In this document: piece after piece, positions 1,106 through 44,282 of the stretch
How the letters are laid out: every line of letters starts with the position of its first letter
How positions within the stretch are numbered: position 1 is the stretch's first letter
Source of the DNA: a virus
DNA: 44,282 nucleotides
Reading direction: 5' to 3' (one strand)
IMG/VR virus record: IMGVR_UViG_3300033145_000547
Coordinates: 1 to 44,282 of that record
Position numbers and translations under genes: made by a program
The notes under the pieces: generated by a model
Databases searched by the model: none
Told to the model about the DNA's origin: nothing
The model's input: the letters and a program-made list of their open reading frames with translations, nothing else

Positions 1106-1132
1106 GCCGCTCGAAAGGGCGGCTTTTCTTTT
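1106..1132 (+). terminator. Intrinsic terminator ending the rightward small-gene cluster
   Basis: GCCGCTC (1106-1112), a GAAA tetraloop and GGGCGGC (1117-1123) form a 7-bp GC-rich stem with one wobble pair, followed by TTTTCTTTT. It lies 54 bp after the last rightward stop codon and faces the end of the leftward operon at 1248. Confidence 0.85.
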
Positions 1133-7060: not shown

Positions 7061-8302
7061 TTATACGAATGACTTCCCGGTTGGGATGTAACCAGCATTG
7101 CCGCTTGTCTTAATAATATCTTCCCCCATTAGCCACTTGACAGCGATTCCTAATTCATTAAAACCTAATATTTCCAACAAGCCGACTAATTCAAACACAC
7201 TTATCAGCGCGTCATCCCCGAACACCGTCTCGATGTACTCCGCCCAGCAATCAGGAGTTTCTTTCAGACACCGCGCTTTCGAGATACGGGCCGCGCGGGG
7301 ATCGGGGGCGGGTTCGGCGTGGAGTTTGATTCGTAATCCGTTAACAGATTGAGTCGTAGAATAGTATTCGCCGCCGCCCCGATAAGCCATATTTCCCCCC
7401 TTCCTGTCTGCTATCCACTCAACTTCGTTTGTGTTATTTCTCCTTTGTGCGCGAAGTATCTTGAATTTATTTTCCCCGATCTCAAAATACCTGTCCGGGT
7501 TCTTACACCATGCCTCAAAAATCTCGGTCGGCGTTAAATACTTTCCCTCCATTTTCGCTTCCTCCTTTATCGTTGGATCGCATCTGAGATTACTAAGCTT
7601 TTCGATCATCCACGATGCGGATACCATATTCTTTTTCGGCTTTTCCTCCAGCGCATACCCCCACTCTTCGACGCCGACACGGATTATCTCGTTGAGTAGG
7701 ATATCGCAATGGTAGGCGGCCCCAGCCCAAAATCTCCCGTCAGCCTCGCGGATCGCTGTGAAGCCGTGGTTATCCCTGTGGTTGCGAGCGTGGCAATATA
7801 ACACACCGTACTTGCTCTTTCGAGACAACGGACACGAAGAGCAATTTGTTCCACCAGGGGTTTTAAATTTGGCGCAAAACGAGCAGGGCATCCAGTATTT
7901 TTCGTGATAGTTTATTTCGTTTTGGGCTATGGCGTCTTCCCTGAATCCCTGCCATTTCTTTACAGATTCCATCCACTGATCGCGTGTAAGTTTTTCCACG
8001 GTTTCCCCCTTTTTTAACCGCCAGTATGTGCCGTCGGCGAGCTTGTAAGTATCATCTACAACGGGGCTGACTAACCCCGTACAACGAACATAACATTTTC
8101 TTTTTTCACGGCTGTAAAACAAGTTCTCGAACCCCGCGCGGCGCATGTCGTCGGGGGTCGCGTGGCGGTACAGGTCTGATGTTTGTAGAAGAGAATCAAG
8201 CATATCGCTATTTCCTATGAGCGATTTCACCGCGTTGTCTGCGGCAACAACCATTATATTGTAATTGCAAAAAACCACCACATCGCCAACCTCGAATTTC
8301 AT
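7061..8302 (-). CDS. Large hypothetical protein with CxxC clusters, 413 aa; first gene of accessory operon
   Basis: This is the first gene after promoter 8433-8461 and its structured leader. ACAGGAGGCGGTTAAG precedes MKFEVGDVVVFCNYN. The N-terminus resembles small beta-barrel starts (GDVVVF). A cysteine cluster, MPCSFCAKFKTPGGTNCSSCPL, lies at about residues 138-159 and is likely metal-binding. There is also a charged central region and a helical C-terminus (LISVFELVGLLEILGFNELGIAVKWL). As the promoter-proximal gene of a phage accessory operon it may act early against the host, but that is inference. No family is recognised. Confidence 0.75.
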   Translation of the reverse strand: MKFEVGDVVVFCNYNIMVVAADNAVKSLIGNSDMLDSLLQTSDLYRHATPDDMRRAGFENLFYSREKRKCYVRCTGLVSPVVDDTYKLADGTYWRLKKGETVEKLTRDQWMESVKKWQGFREDAIAQNEINYHEKYWMPCSFCAKFKTPGGTNCSSCPLSRKSKYGVLYCHARNHRDNHGFTAIREADGRFWAGAAYHCDILLNEIIRVGVEEWGYALEEKPKKNMVSASWMIEKLSNLRCDPTIKEEAKMEGKYLTPTEIFEAWCKNPDRYFEIGENKFKILRAQRRNNTNEVEWIADRKGGNMAYRGGGEYYSTTQSVNGLRIKLHAEPAPDPRAARISKARCLKETPDCWAEYIETVFGDDALISVFELVGLLEILGFNELGIAVKWLMGEDIIKTSGNAGYIPTGKSFV

Positions 8303-8426
8303 CTTAACCGCCTCCTGTTAAAGAACGAACAACGGGGCCGCTTCCAGTACCCGCGAGAGCATGGTGAACGACCCCGCCGAACGCCCTTAAATTTTTAATT
8401 GGTGTGCTCTCGCGGGTCTTCATGAC
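8303..8426 (-). promoter_or_regulatory. Structured 5' leader A (stem plus downstream pairing, possible pseudoknot)
   Basis: Reading leftward from the predicted transcript start near 8426, ACCCGCGAGAGCA (8405-8417) and TGCTCTCGCGGGT (8349-8361) form a perfect 13-bp stem (P1) around a 43-nt loop. The loop segment CGGCGGGGTCGTT (8367-8379) can pair with AGCGGCCCCGTTG (8330-8342) just beyond the stem, giving up to 13 pairs including wobbles (P2). P1 and P2 interleave, so they form a pseudoknot or exclude each other. The loop starts CACCAATTAA. The same design recurs at 39444-39555 and 40946-41057. Confidence 0.7.
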
Positions 8427-8432
8427 AACTGC

Positions 8433-8461
8433 ATTTTACCACATTGCGAAAAGGCTGTCAA
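8433..8461 (-). promoter_or_regulatory. Sigma70-type promoter for leftward accessory operon
   Basis: TTGACA (8456-8461), a 17-bp spacer and TAAAAT (8433-8438) on the minus strand. It lies directly after the terminator of the virion/lysis operon and reads into the 413-aa gene through structured leader A. Confidence 0.88.
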
Positions 8462-8531: not shown

Positions 8532-8870
8532 CTATTTGATCTTATCAGTCGTTACCTTCCTGAATCTGCGCTGAAATCGCTGAAACCAACCCTTCTTTAC
8601 CGTCTCTGTCGTCTCGCCAGCTTTTGCTATTTCAAGAACGGTGTCCAGTGTTTCAGCTACCTTGTTCGTGATTTCTTCCGGCGGCATGTTCTGGTCAAGC
8701 AAGTCCTGAATATACGACCGTTGCTTCGCGGTCAACATCTTGTTCCAGAACCACTTCGCGATAATCGTACAGAGAAAAACCGCGACCCCGACTATTGCTT
8801 TGCTTGTCGTTTCGTTTTCGAGAAGGCGGAGCAAAAGAGGGAGCAAAAACTCACTAAGAAATTCTGACAT
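8532..8870 (-). CDS. Single-pass membrane protein, holin or lysis accessory candidate, 112 aa
   Basis: MSEFLSEFLLPLLLRLLENE forms an amphipathic N-terminal helix. AIVGVAVFLCTIIAKWFW (about 25-42) is one clear membrane segment, and a charged basic tail follows (WFQRFQRRFRKVTTDKIK). Position directly after the endolysin and last in the late operon suggests a role in lysis. The gene starts 79 bp inside the endolysin gene, with GAAAGGAAGG upstream. It may be a second holin, an antiholin or a membrane regulator; the sequence does not decide. Confidence 0.7.
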   Translation of the reverse strand: MSEFLSEFLLPLLLRLLENETTSKAIVGVAVFLCTIIAKWFWNKMLTAKQRSYIQDLLDQNMPPEEITNKVAETLDTVLEIAKAGETTETVKKGWFQRFQRRFRKVTTDKIK

Positions 8871-33114: not shown

Positions 33115-33143
33115 TTGACAGGTCGGTAGACTAAATTTATAAT
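33115..33143 (+). promoter_or_regulatory. Consensus promoter giving a leaderless HTH message
   Basis: TTGACA (33115-33120), 17-bp spacer, TATAAT (33138-33143). Only six bases separate the -10 box from the ATG at 33150, so transcription should start at or next to the first base of the codon. Confidence 0.85.
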
Positions 33144-33149
33144 GCAAGC

Positions 33150-33401
33150 ATGAAAAGAAAAGATGAAATATCGCTTAAAGAACGAGTGCGCTTCGGAAAC
33201 CAGCTTGCCGCTTTGGTCGAAAAACGCGGTATTACACTTGGGTTGCTGGCCCAGATTACGGGCATATCGAAATCGCATCTGTATCTGATCCGGCGCGGTA
33301 AACGCGCACCATCCCCTGAATGCGCAAAGAAAATCCACGATGTTTTGAAATCGCCGCTTCGTTGCCCTCATTGCGGCCAATTCATAGGAAACGAGGAATG
33401 A
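33150..33401 (+). CDS. HTH (Xre/Cro-like) regulator with zinc-knuckle tail, 83 aa
   Basis: Residues about 12-60 give a helix-turn-helix pattern: RFGNQLAALVEKRGITLGLLAQITGISKSHLYLIRRGKRAPSPECAKKIHDVL. LGLLAQITGISKSHLYLIRRG is the two-helix core. A short C-terminal CPHCGQFIG knuckle could bind metal with a partner. No ribosome-binding site precedes the ATG, which agrees with a leaderless message as for lambda cI from its maintenance promoter. It may regulate the divergent virion operon or its own promoter. It is followed directly by the HExxE protein. Confidence 0.8.
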   Translation: MKRKDEISLKERVRFGNQLAALVEKRGITLGLLAQITGISKSHLYLIRRGKRAPSPECAKKIHDVLKSPLRCPHCGQFIGNEE

Positions 33402-38515: not shown

Positions 38516-39213
38516 ACTATCTCCATGTCGGGCGCGCCCCATGTGTCGCTCTTTGTTTGAGTGCCGCCCTTTTCCTGACATCGTGAAAGCCAGTTGTTCA
38601 AAAATCTCTTATAATCCTTTTTTCGCTTCTTAGGATTCGCGGCCTGCCATGCAGCAGCTTTTCTTATTTCTGCGCTTACATCACAAGCGGGGTAAGCCTC
38701 ACTCCATATTTTAACCTGTGTTTTTTTAACATTCTCTATCTTTGATGTCTCCCAATTAAACGAGATTTTCACATCCGGTTCAGGATGATCGGTTTCATCG
38801 TCCTGAACAAAAGGTTTTTCTTTTAAATTCCCTTCTATTCCCTTCCCTTCAGAGGGAATTTCCCGGAATTTCCCGGAATTTCCCGGAATCTTTGGTTTTG
38901 TTCTTTTGTGAAGCCCCGTTTGGTGTTTCTCGAAATCTACTATCTGAATATATGGCCTCCCGTCGATCTTGTACCATTCGATGATTTTTTCGTTATTCAT
39001 ATCGGAAAGGCAATCTTTTACCTGTTTTTGAGTAAACTTTTCGAGCGTTGGTACAAGGTTGTGTTTTATCCAGAACGGAGTTCCGTCCAAGCGCCCGAAA
39101 TCATCTGAGTGTGGATGAAGAAGGCAATAAAGAAGCCGGGCGCTGTCAGTTTTCAGGTTGGTGAATTTTTCGCTCGTCGAAAGCGATTTGGATAACAACC
39201 GCGCTTTAGCCAT
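38512..39213 (-). CDS. Replication initiator / helicase loader-like protein, 233 aa
   Basis: The N-terminal about 100 residues look like a winged-helix phage replisome organiser. They include LSTSEKFTNLKTDSARLLYCLLHPHSDDFGR, KQVKDCLSDMNNEKIIEWYKIDGRPYIQIVDFEKHQ and TGLHKRTK. A low-complexity middle is followed by a C-terminal helical part with KRFLNNWLSRCQEKG, as in DnaD/lambda-O-like proteins. The helicase gene follows directly, as O is followed by P or DnaB-like genes in other phages. The gene contains 10-bp tandem repeats that resemble an origin (38855-38890). Confidence 0.75.
   Translation of the reverse strand: MAKARLLSKSLSTSEKFTNLKTDSARLLYCLLHPHSDDFGRLDGTPFWIKHNLVPTLEKFTQKQVKDCLSDMNNEKIIEWYKIDGRPYIQIVDFEKHQTGLHKRTKPKIPGNSGKFREIPSEGKGIEGNLKEKPFVQDDETDHPEPDVKISFNWETSKIENVKKTQVKIWSEAYPACDVSAEIRKAAAWQAANPKKRKKDYKRFLNNWLSRCQEKGGTQTKSDTWGAPDMEIV
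38855..38890. repeat. 10-bp tandem repeats inside the initiator gene (candidate origin iterons)
   Basis: Three perfect copies of GGAATTTCCC stand in tandem at 38855-38884, and a fourth partial copy follows. More AATTCCC/TTCCC elements lie just to the left at 38825-38850. The period is 10, not a multiple of 3, so it translates into non-repeating residues; selection is therefore more likely on DNA than on protein. Lambdoid origins lie at the same place, inside gene O. Confidence 0.65.
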
Positions 39214-39443: not shown

Positions 39444-39555
39444 ATCAAATCCTTTCTGAAAAAAGGACAACGCGGGGCTTGAAGCCGGGTAAGCTGGAAA
39501 GCCGCCGCCCTGTCCTTTTGTCGCAAAGTATTATTTGGTGATCCAGCTTACCCAT
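39444..39555 (-). promoter_or_regulatory. Structured 5' leader B (stem plus downstream pairing, possible pseudoknot)
   Basis: The predicted transcript begins close to GGGTAAGCTGGA (39542-39553), which pairs perfectly with TCCAGCTTACCC (39487-39498) around a 43-nt loop. The loop's 3' part (39499-39519, with AAGGACA and GGCGGCTT) can pair with 39461-39480 (AAGCCCCGC and TGTCCTTTT), giving about 18 pairs with a bulge and a small internal loop. The second helix is followed by a U-run, so it could also act as an attenuator. The loop starts TCACCAAATAA, like leader A. Confidence 0.7.
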
Positions 39556-39561
39556 ACCCGA

Positions 39562-39590
39562 ACTGTATCACACGCCGGGCGCGTTGTCAA
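39562..39590 (-). promoter_or_regulatory. Sigma70-type promoter of replication operon
   Basis: TTGACA (39585-39590), 17-bp spacer, TACAGT (39562-39567) on the minus strand. The GC-rich spacer and imperfect -10 suggest a weaker or regulated promoter. It feeds leader B. Confidence 0.8.
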
Positions 39591-40018: not shown

Positions 40019-40402
40019 ACATCCATAAGAGAGATAAATACCCCTAAAAGAATCCTGTCCCGATATAATGTATGATACCGGCCCCGCTTGGATGCCCGAC
40101 ACACCCTCCCCTTCTCTGATCTCAATTATTCAATTACCCTGATGCGTGATCCCTGATATGATACGCGCCGCGCAAATACAGGGGCGGACACCTAACGCTT
40201 GCCGCCAAAGCCCGCTCAATACAGCGGCCGGATAGCTAACACTCAAGCGATTACACAGCCATGGATCAATTACCAGGCTCTGTTCTCTTAACTACCAACG
40301 TCGCATAATCATTTATATGTTGCAAAATAAGATATTGCGATGAATACAGGGTTTTTTAATATGACGTGTTAAGATAGCGTTAAATTAAGCACTAAATTAA
40401 CC

Positions 40403-40436
40403 GCCTTGATAGTACCGCGCTCAAAGCCATCAAGGC
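40403..40436. repeat. Inverted repeat GCCTTGAT/ATCAAGGC
   Basis: Perfect 8-bp arms (40403-40410 and 40429-40436) with an 18-bp spacer inside the gene-free region. It lacks a U-run on either strand. Confidence 0.55.
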
Positions 40437-40480
40437 AAAAGTGATAACAAATATCCCTGTATCTATCACGCTTCTTGTTA

Positions 40481-40501
40481 AGTATAGATAACGTCTATAC
40501 T
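40481..40501. promoter_or_regulatory. 21-bp operator-like palindrome
   Basis: AGTATAGA (40481-40488), TAACG, TCTATACT (40494-40501) is a perfect 8-bp-arm palindrome, a size and symmetry typical for a dimeric repressor. It lies in the gene-free region. Related CTATC and CATAGATA elements lie close by. The binding protein is unknown; the HTH and RHH candidates are possible partners. Confidence 0.5.
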
Positions 40502-40604
40502 GCGCATAGATAAAAAAAATCCTGCCTCCTGATGCACAGATAACGAAAAGCCTTTGTATCCTTGCCCTCTCTCTAATATTAAATAAGAATATTAAATACT
40601 CTGA

Positions 40605-40710
40605 TAAAAGCAAAAGATAAAAGACAAAGATATAAAAGCAAGATATTAGTTAGTACAAAAAGCGGAATGTAGATATTAAAAGCTATATATAAAAGCTATA
40701 TATTAAAAGC
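40605..40710. repeat. AT-rich TAAAAGC repeats (iteron-like)
   Basis: Five exact TAAAAGC copies start at 40605, 40633, 40677, 40690 and 40704, within runs of TATATA and ATTAAA. The last three are spaced 13-14 bp. Easy melting and repeated short sites suit an origin unwinding element or a protein-loading site. Confidence 0.5.
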
Positions 40711-40910
40711 AAAGAATTAAATAAATAAATATAAAGCAAAAGAAGGTTATTGCTACGTGATAGGTATGCGCGTGTGCGCGTGATGCGCGGGCGCGCGGCG
40801 TTGCCCTTTTGGGCATGCTGTCGGTTTGTCCCGTGGTGGCGGGCAGTGCCAGACGTAGAAACTAAAAACGCTTGTGTTGATGGGCAGATATTTATTTATT
40901 CGCGGAACGC

Positions 40911-40939
40911 TTGACAGATTTTCGTTGATTTGTTATAAT
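40911..40939 (+). promoter_or_regulatory. Consensus promoter of rightward small-gene cluster
   Basis: TTGACA (40911-40916), 17-bp spacer, TATAAT (40934-40939). It is the strongest-looking operon promoter and feeds structured leader C. Confidence 0.92.
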
Positions 40940-40945
40940 TATTGC

Positions 40946-41057
40946 ATGGCCTGGCGACCACCACACACAAAATATTACGAGAGCGGAGCGGGAGCGCAAC
41001 CTGCCAGGTCATTGCTTCCGTTCTGTTCTCTTTTCTCTTTGAAAGGAGAATGTTATT
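40946..41057 (+). promoter_or_regulatory. Structured 5' leader C (stem plus downstream pairing, possible pseudoknot)
   Basis: The expected transcript start coincides with ATGGCCTGGC (40946-40955), which pairs with GCCAGGTCAT (41003-41012) in a 10-bp stem around a 47-nt loop. Loop segment AGAGCGGAGC (40980-40989) can pair with GCTTCCGTTCT (41014-41024), one base beyond the stem, with one bulge. The loop starts GACCACCACACACAAAATATT. Layout matches leaders A and B. A pyrimidine-rich stretch and the ribosome-binding site follow. Confidence 0.68.
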
Positions 41058-41279
41058 ATGAGAATCAAACTGATTAAAGAGAATTACCTCGGAGCTACAC
41101 TACATTCAAAGCTTACTGGTTTTATCCAGTTGGAGCTTGCAGACTGTGATTATGCTACAGCTTGTAAAATAGCTGATAGTGTCTGTAATAACTTGCAGAT
41201 GTATGATGGCATAGAATTACCGAATGCTACTACATTTGAAAAGACATTTGTACCGGATGCAGTTATGGAGAGTGTATAA
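41058..41279 (+). CDS. Hypothetical protein, 73 aa; first gene of rightward cluster
   Basis: GAAAGGAGAATGTTATT precedes MRIKLIKENYLGATLHSKLTG. Compact alpha/beta sequence with three cysteines (LELADCDYATACKIADSVCNN). It is the promoter-proximal gene after leader C. No family is recognised. Confidence 0.75.
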   Translation: MRIKLIKENYLGATLHSKLTGFIQLELADCDYATACKIADSVCNNLQMYDGIELPNATTFEKTFVPDAVMESV

Positions 41280-41462: not shown

Positions 41463-41493
41463 CCTAAACTAATCTCTTTGAAAGGAGAATGTT

Positions 41494-41763
41494 ATGCGAG
41501 TAAAGACAGTAACAATAGCAACGTACAATCAGAATTGTTTAAGAGCAGGAGAGATTTGTAGGGATGAGGATATGATTGACACAGTGATAGAAGAATCAGG
41601 CGGTGAGGGCGGATGTTACGGAGATATTACGGTTGAGGTGGGTACGGTAGCAGAACTCATGGACTCCGCCGCCGCCACGACGTTGATTGAAGTCCACGAC
41701 TCTAATCAGATGTTTCGGTGGAAGCGCGCGCGGAACATCATCGAGGAGCTTGAAGCTGTTTAA
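41494..41763 (+). CDS. Hypothetical protein, 89 aa
   Basis: GAAAGGAGAATGTT precedes MRVKTVTIATYNQNCLRAGE. An acidic stretch (CRDEDMIDTVIEESGGEGGCYGD) precedes beta/alpha segments (ITVEVGTVAELMDSAAATTLIEVHDSN) and a helical end. The 23 bases around its ribosome-binding site are identical to those before 41058. No family is recognised. Confidence 0.72.
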   Translation: MRVKTVTIATYNQNCLRAGEICRDEDMIDTVIEESGGEGGCYGDITVEVGTVAELMDSAAATTLIEVHDSNQMFRWKRARNIIEELEAV

Positions 41764-43845: not shown

Positions 43846-44282
43846 ATGTATCCACAGTTTTTAGAAATTAAAACGGACGAACGAGGCTACGAATATTTTC
43901 TATGGCCGGGCGGAAATGCTAAGATTTACGGCGGAACCATCGAGGGCGGAACCATCTGGGGCGGAACCATCGAGGGCGGAACCATCTGGGGCGGAACCAT
44001 CTGGGGCGGAACCATCAGGGGCGGAACCATCGAGGGCGGAACCATCAGGGGCGGAACCATCAGGGGCGGAACCATCTGGGGCGGAACCATCTGGGGCGGA
44101 ACCATCAGGGGCGGAACCATCGAGGGCGGAACCATCAGGGGCGGAACCATCTGGGGCGGAACCATCAGGGGCGGAACCATCTGGGGCGGAACCATCTGGG
44201 GCGGAACCATCAGGGGCGGAACCATCGAGGGCGGAACCATCAGGGGCGGAACCATCAGGGGCGGAACCATCAGGGGCGGAAC
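43846..44282 (+). CDS. N-terminal part of GGTIx-repeat protein (continues at base 1)
   Basis: AAAGGAGAAAAAATT precedes MYPQFLEIKTDERGYEYFLW, then PGGNAKIY leads into 23 complete GGTIx units and a partial one. Closing the contig at 44168/1 yields 208 residues: a 28-residue start, 24 repeat units and a C-terminal domain of about 60 residues. The variable fifth residue is only W, R or E. Such five-residue periodicity suits a quadrilateral beta helix like pentapeptide-repeat proteins; the motif is a G-T-I-x-G variant. Several units are exchangeable at DNA level, so copy number may vary among phages. Confidence 0.8.
   Translation, partial: MYPQFLEIKTDERGYEYFLWPGGNAKIYGGTIEGGTIWGGTIEGGTIWGGTIWGGTIRGGTIEGGTIRGGTIRGGTIWGGTIWGGTIRGGTIEGGTIRGGTIWGGTIRGGTIWGGTIWGGTIRGGTIEGGTIRGGTIRGGTIRGG
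43931..44282 (+). repeat. 15-bp tandem repeat, right end (coding GGTIx)
   Basis: Twenty-three full units of GGCGGAACCATC plus TGG, AGG or GAG. Reading only the variable residue gives E W E W W R E R R W W R E R W R W W R E R R R. The block W W R E R occurs three times, a sign of recent multi-unit duplication. Confidence 0.95.

Follow-up and report, generated by a model that had tools for sequence, protein, structure and literature searches.

Three leaders anchored at promoters (A, B and C in the following) open three early operons of an uncultured phage and are probably an unrecognised RNA switch by which this phage shuts off its own early genes. The window, i.e. the complete stretch of DNA that we analysed, is a virus record of 44,282 bp that encodes a P22-like portal, TerL, DnaB and a RepO-like initiator. 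Whichever variant of the mechanism applies, we consider it highly probable that some control is exerted by pairing between two leader segments (b and b'). We put at about even the chances that the leaders are autogenous antisense/attenuator elements of the C4/CI type at the starts of early operons, a reading that rests on analogy and in which an RNA would also act in trans. More tentatively, they could represent a promoter-anchored class of self-targeting antisense immunity RNAs that is unrelated in sequence to C4, with three orthogonal copies at the early operons and possibly a non-proteobacterial (Bacillota-like) host.

The three promoters are strong, of the sigma70 type and have extended -10 elements. 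Promoter A (8433..8461, minus strand; TTGACA-17-TAAAAT) scores 11/12, promoter B (39562..39590, minus strand; TTGACA-17-TACAGT) 10/12 and promoter C (40911..40939, plus strand; TTGACA-17-TATAAT with a TG extension) a perfect 12/12. Downstream lie leaders of about 112-124 nt with a common layout: a 5' stem (S1), a segment b within its loop and a complement b' just downstream of the stem. Together these elements span positions 8417-8318 (minus strand) in leader A, 39554-39448 (minus strand) in leader B and 40946-41030 (plus strand) in leader C. The primary sequences diverge despite the same layout, and a CACCA motif is common to all three. S1 begins 7-16 nt downstream of the -10 element. The predicted +1 of transcript C (40946) is the first base of S1, so that the earlier note was right for this leader in placing the stem exactly at the mRNA start; S1 sets in at about +2/+3 in leader B, and as late as about +10 in leader A.

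The same note held that three of three operon promoters have this architecture, which is correct for the type of promoter plus leader described here and too broad for the genome, because two 12/12 sigma70 promoters have no S1/b/b' element and would yield leaderless transcripts, given that the predicted +1 is the A of the ATG. These are found at 33115-33150 (plus strand), in front of an HTH_3 repressor-like ORF (33150-33401), and at 40018-39981 (minus strand), in front of a 90-aa ORF (39983-39711) with no assigned function. Upstream of the structural operon no leader of the A/B/C kind was found within the window. In lambda, cI is transcribed leaderless from PRM and the early operons have control leaders; the phage resembles it in having a leaderless repressor transcript beside early operons with putative control leaders.

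The 5' arm of S1 in leader C, ATGGCCTGGCG (40946..40956, plus strand), begins at the predicted +1, and the 3' arm, TGCCAGGTCAT (41002..41012, plus strand), lies inside the loop of the b/b' hairpin. The stem of 10 bp with a loop of 47 nt that had been described here corresponds to the outer part of the structure; the full S1 comprises 11 pairs, including two G-U, and closes a loop of 45 nt. In leader B, TGGGTAAGCTGGA (39542..39554, minus strand) pairs with TCCAGCTTACCCG (39486..39498, minus strand) over 12-13 bp and in leader A, ACCCGCGAGAGCA (8405..8417, minus strand) pairs with TGCTCTCGCGGGT (8349..8361, minus strand) over 13 bp, with a loop of 43 nt in either case. The RNA closed by S1 would be formed by the first ~67-69 nt in all three leaders.

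The loop segment b of leader C, GAGAGCGGAGCGGGAGCG (40979..40996, plus strand), is a candidate antisense and forms 18 uninterrupted pairs with its target b', TGCTTCCGTTCTGTTCTC (41013..41030, plus strand). A pairing of 40980-40989 with 41014-41024 had been noticed before and is indeed present, as part of this longer hairpin. The view of the second pairing as a short one did not survive: b/b' is the dominant hairpin of 17-23 bp and not a short pseudoknot helix, and a short H-type pseudoknot was rejected as the main structure for this reason. In leader B the segment b (39505..39532, minus strand) is the 5' arm of the b/b' hairpin, and the target (39448..39475, minus strand) includes TGTCCTTTTTT and the Shine-Dalgarno sequence (SD) of the first gene; in leader A the segment b lies at 8367..8391 and the target, AGCGGCCCCGTTGTTCGTTCTTTAA, at 8318..8342 (both minus strand). 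Paired positions number 22/25 in A, 23/28 in B and 18/18 in C, with duplex energies of -36.0, -36.4 and -31.8 kcal/mol, respectively. S1 and b/b' have no base in common in any of the leaders. The b/b' hairpin runs into a U-rich tract ahead of the SD, which is found within about 0-13 nt of the end of b' and in leader B is covered by it. The tract of leader C, TTTTCTCTTT (41031..41040, plus strand), belongs to the 0.3% of the genome with the highest U-scores; the scores of B and C (4.2 and 4.0; top 0.2-0.3%) approach the 4.4-5.0 of the terminators that the phage has elsewhere, and that of A is weaker (2.55).

Prefix folding predicts that S1 forms first, from about nt 63-78, and that b/b' takes over as the fold of lowest energy once about 78-96 nt are made, in 3/3 leaders. 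The energies of the S1-enforced and the b/b' fold are close in leaders A (-34.0 vs -39.2) and B (-30.9 vs -33.9), and in leader C the b/b' fold is clearly the more stable (-19.9 vs -33.5). The predicted change from S1 to b/b' is a switch on paper. The own loop is the best partner of each of the three targets, by 8-18 kcal/mol; in a genome-wide comparison of duplex energies with bulges allowed a few other sites equal the own target, which is thus not singled out.

P1 and P4 have C4/CI RNAs with this arrangement. When three control genomes (P4, HK022 and lambda) were scanned with a descriptor of the interleaved order a-b-a'-b', the CI/C4 immunity RNA ranked first in P4, where Rfam recognises it independently (RF01695, 74.9 bits), and HK022 and lambda yielded nothing comparable. 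In P4 CI a 17-bp S1 closes a 44-nt loop with GCCGGTATTCTCAC, and the complement GTGAGAACTCCGGC is separated from S1 by about 9 nt and precedes the SD of the next gene, so that the order is that of the leaders: stem, loop b (seqB), stem, b' (seqC), SD and first gene. The S1 of P1 C4 has 18 pairs, those of PY54 and phiKO2 17 bp; the loops of P1, P4, PY54 and phiKO2 (40, 44, 44 and 44 nt) define a range of ~40-44 nt for C4, compared to 43, 43 and 45 nt in the leaders. The target starts 4-10 nt after S1 in these four phages and 0-11 nt after it in the leaders, where it likewise belongs to the same transcript and lies close to the ribosome-binding site (RBS) of the first gene. In the P1 record, the target a2 is annotated 4 nt beyond the end of the 77-nt C4 RNA, and icd 50 nt beyond it; P1/P7 C4 resembles the leaders in having its target just downstream, before icd.

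The RNA closed by S1 is likewise comparable, with 78 nt in P4 CI and 76-78 nt over the C4/CI range against 67-69 nt in the leaders. There are also differences. P4 CI is located deeper in its leader, where a seqA/isrK-like element and a terminator-like, T-rich hairpin precede it, and has two inner hairpins within its 17-bp S1. The leaders, in contrast, have S1 at the promoter, which itself gives the predicted 5' end near S1, a longer b/b' (18-28 nt) and no inner hairpins, the S1-constrained folds showing weak and unrelated inner pairs. P1/P7 C4, which acts on two short targets that lie apart (a and b), occurs at one locus per genome and controls an antirepressor operon, whereas the leaders occur at three loci before replication genes or genes without recognised function. 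The Rfam covariance model for C4 (RF01695) matched none of the leaders at the gathering threshold or at E<=5 and we therefore limit the claim to leaders that would work like C4/CI and do not call them C4 RNAs. A direct Rfam assignment was discarded, as it yielded matches at chance level only, mostly to microRNA models that fit a long hairpin. The earlier note knew of no named RNA family with this layout; no Rfam family matches the leaders, but their layout is that of the C4/CI RNAs.

The immunity RNA of P4 is cut from a longer transcript and ends transcription as an antisense RNA by pairing with the flanking seqA and seqC (PMC4825925). In P1/P7, C4 blocks the translation of the ant mRNA around the RBS (PMC12197685; PMC5320573) and RNase P cuts at the 5' end of the stem (PMC5320573). 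RNA immunity of the C4/CI type is known from Proteobacteria and their phages (PMC2864571; PMC5320573).

By analogy, we propose that the S1 hairpin folds first on the growing transcript, with segment b in its loop, and that the b/b' hairpin would overtake it once b' has been transcribed. The pairing of b with b', in cis or by an S1-hairpin RNA that is released and acts in trans, would then stop expression of the operon, either because the hairpin and the U-rich tract after it, which is clear in B and C and weak in A, act like an intrinsic terminator, or because the ribosome site is covered, or both. The S1-closed RNA may accumulate and target new transcripts of its own operon, either in the lysogen or early in infection, where it would act as a brake. 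As the promoter would define its 5' end, which is also that of S1, no cut by RNase P would be needed. As each loop prefers its own target, the three operons could be separately self-limited. A possible role in immunity or self-limitation is suggested by the comparison with P1 and P4, the products encoded downstream being mostly without recognised function. If true, the logic of C4/CI occurs thrice in one unrelated phage without a common sequence, and self-repression by RNA is wider than sequence and covariance models reveal; a search for promoters followed by the interleaved order a-b-a'-b' could detect such leaders, and the three compact and apparently orthogonal leader switches are candidates for reporters.

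We used a descriptor scan in place of a covariance search, because MAFFT aligns the three leaders by sequence and fails to match up their stems. Applied to 3.87 Mb of DNA from other phages and prophages, and with a promoter of at least 9/12 required, the scan recovered one further promoter-proximal element, L222 (IMGVR_UViG_3300034815_000010, about 2650-2540, minus strand), which opens a leftward operon; the remaining matches to the descriptor had no promoter and lay in stretches of 53-64% GC. An earlier scan by duplex energy alone, without promoter filter, was swamped by GC-rich coding sequence. L222 is like the leaders in its interleaved S1 (15 bp) and b/b' (23/24 pairs), which follow a promoter-like sequence and precede TTTTTT, and its competing folds are close in energy (-43.6 vs -44.6); its U-tract score, like those of B and C, resembles those of the terminators in the window. 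It is unlike them in that it belongs to an unrelated phage, lacks the CACCA motif, has a short linker and is followed by a Betaproteobacteria-1 RNA. At 79 loci where the neighbouring gene is related, no element of the L222 type was seen. The Betaproteobacteria-1 RNA (RF02932; 2344-2461, minus strand) is located about 80 nt downstream of the leader element and may belong to the same leftward leader, and an int-alpA RNA is found at 8753-8815 (plus strand) of that record.

Relatives of the phage itself were sought via its proteins. Single-protein searches of IMG/VR with the ORF at 41058, the ORF at 7061-8302 and TerL recovered no relative; the identity of TerL to anything found was at most 33% among the matches listed, and at least 80 loci aligned by TerL at <=33% identity showed no A/B/C-type leaders among the matches listed. 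The relatives of RepO (in phages, IMG/VR and GTDB, from Paenibacillus and others) had no such leaders, except for the unrelated L222, nor had the genomes of the Paenibacillus phylum and class, together with 19 prophage stretches, that were searched by TerL/MCP. A scan of IMG/VR for a promoter plus CACCA gave at least 118 loci, none with S1 plus b/b' among the matches listed, and the motif therefore provides no leads. No close relative of the phage was found in the collections searched; relatives may exist unseen in IMG/VR.

The main rival to the C4/CI-like reading, possible though on balance rather unlikely, is an attenuator that acts purely in cis without a trans RNA: S1, as antiterminator or as one half of a pseudoknot, would hinder the b/b' terminator and a protein, a ligand or the speed of transcription would decide. 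With intrinsic-terminator attenuators the leaders have in common a long hairpin between promoter and first gene, with a U-rich tract that is clear in B and C and weak in A; the U-rich tracts at the end of b/b' in B and C and the switch from S1 to b/b' in prefix folding agree with this, as does L222, where the hairpin, with its TTTTTT, makes a complete terminator and the linker of S1 measures only 4-6 nt, so that S1 and b/b' could not both be complete at once. Moreover, b/b' is longer than in C4 and clearly more stable than S1 in leader C, for which reason the cis hairpin might dominate and a trans RNA be unneeded. In the leaders, however, S1 pairs with the loop of the terminator and does not overlap its arms, and, unlike in the usual antiterminators, there are no bases common to both helices; the linker of 9-22 nt could let both helices form, the U-tract of leader A is weak and PHROGs/Pfam recognised no antitermination protein in the window.

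Improbable, in our view, is a 5'-terminal structure, made of a stem with a pseudoknot or of one long duplex, that sets mRNA stability or serves as an RNase III processing site without conditional control. S1 lies at or near +1 in leaders B and C, and RNase III can act on duplexes of 17-23 bp, the length of b/b'; such a function leaves unexplained, however, the complementarity of the loop to the segment before the SD in 3/3 leaders and the constant loop of 43-45 nt, since local stability needs no such pairing. Even less probable is an RNA like HK022 put, which makes RNA polymerase terminator-resistant: the position at the start of early operons and the strand-divergent copies would fit, but put consists of two adjacent hairpins of conserved sequence, whereas the leaders show no two consecutive conserved hairpins, their pairing is interleaved, their sequences diverge and no comparable element was detected in the regions of HK022 or lambda.

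Chance inverted repeats are hardly credible as an explanation of A, B and C, even though there are three copies only, in one genome, and no relatives were found, because 0/3000 shuffles and 0/30 randomised windows reach the layout and the leaders take the first three ranks by S1 score when 1815 promoters that reach 9/12 or more (1.06 Mb) are compared. Dinucleotide shuffling gave both S1 and b/b' in 0/1000 cases for each leader, and the randomised windows contained 0 elements, compared to exactly 3 in the real window; an S1 that is equal or better occurs at random sites of the same genome with a frequency of 0.00017 (A), 0.00033 (B) and 0.002 (C). The stem geometry is thus above chance, and the earlier note's suggestion of a structured leader class repeated within one genome is borne out by these statistics.

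Several further features of the genome were observed. In its N-terminal part, RepO is closest to proteins of Paenibacillus and related bacteria (47-53%). Inside the RepO-like gene, three iteron-like tandem copies of GGAATTTCCC with a spacing of 10 bp are found at 38855-38889. The first gene of operon C (41058..41279, plus strand) encodes 73 aa without family match and has the SD AAAGGAGA just upstream. An identical 23-nt ribosome-site context, TCTCTTTGAAAGGAGAATGTTAT, precedes two genes of this operon (41034-41056 and 41473-41495), and the SD within it sits in a local hairpin. Intrinsic terminators are located just upstream of promoters A (8499-8477, minus strand) and B (about 39640-39610, minus strand), and one at 1106-1123 (plus strand) closes operon C. 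A 15-nt tandem repeat that encodes GGTIx pentapeptide repeats occurs at both window ends (43930-44282 and 1-120); the genome is therefore probably circular or permuted and broken inside this repeat, with a join that is not in frame, and operon C would run through the end to the terminator at 1106-1123. The about 900 bp of noncoding DNA between the divergent promoters (40020-40910) contain 13-bp direct repeats at 40592-40735 (TAAAAGC...) and, at 40760-40800, a GC-rich part, and look like a replication origin.
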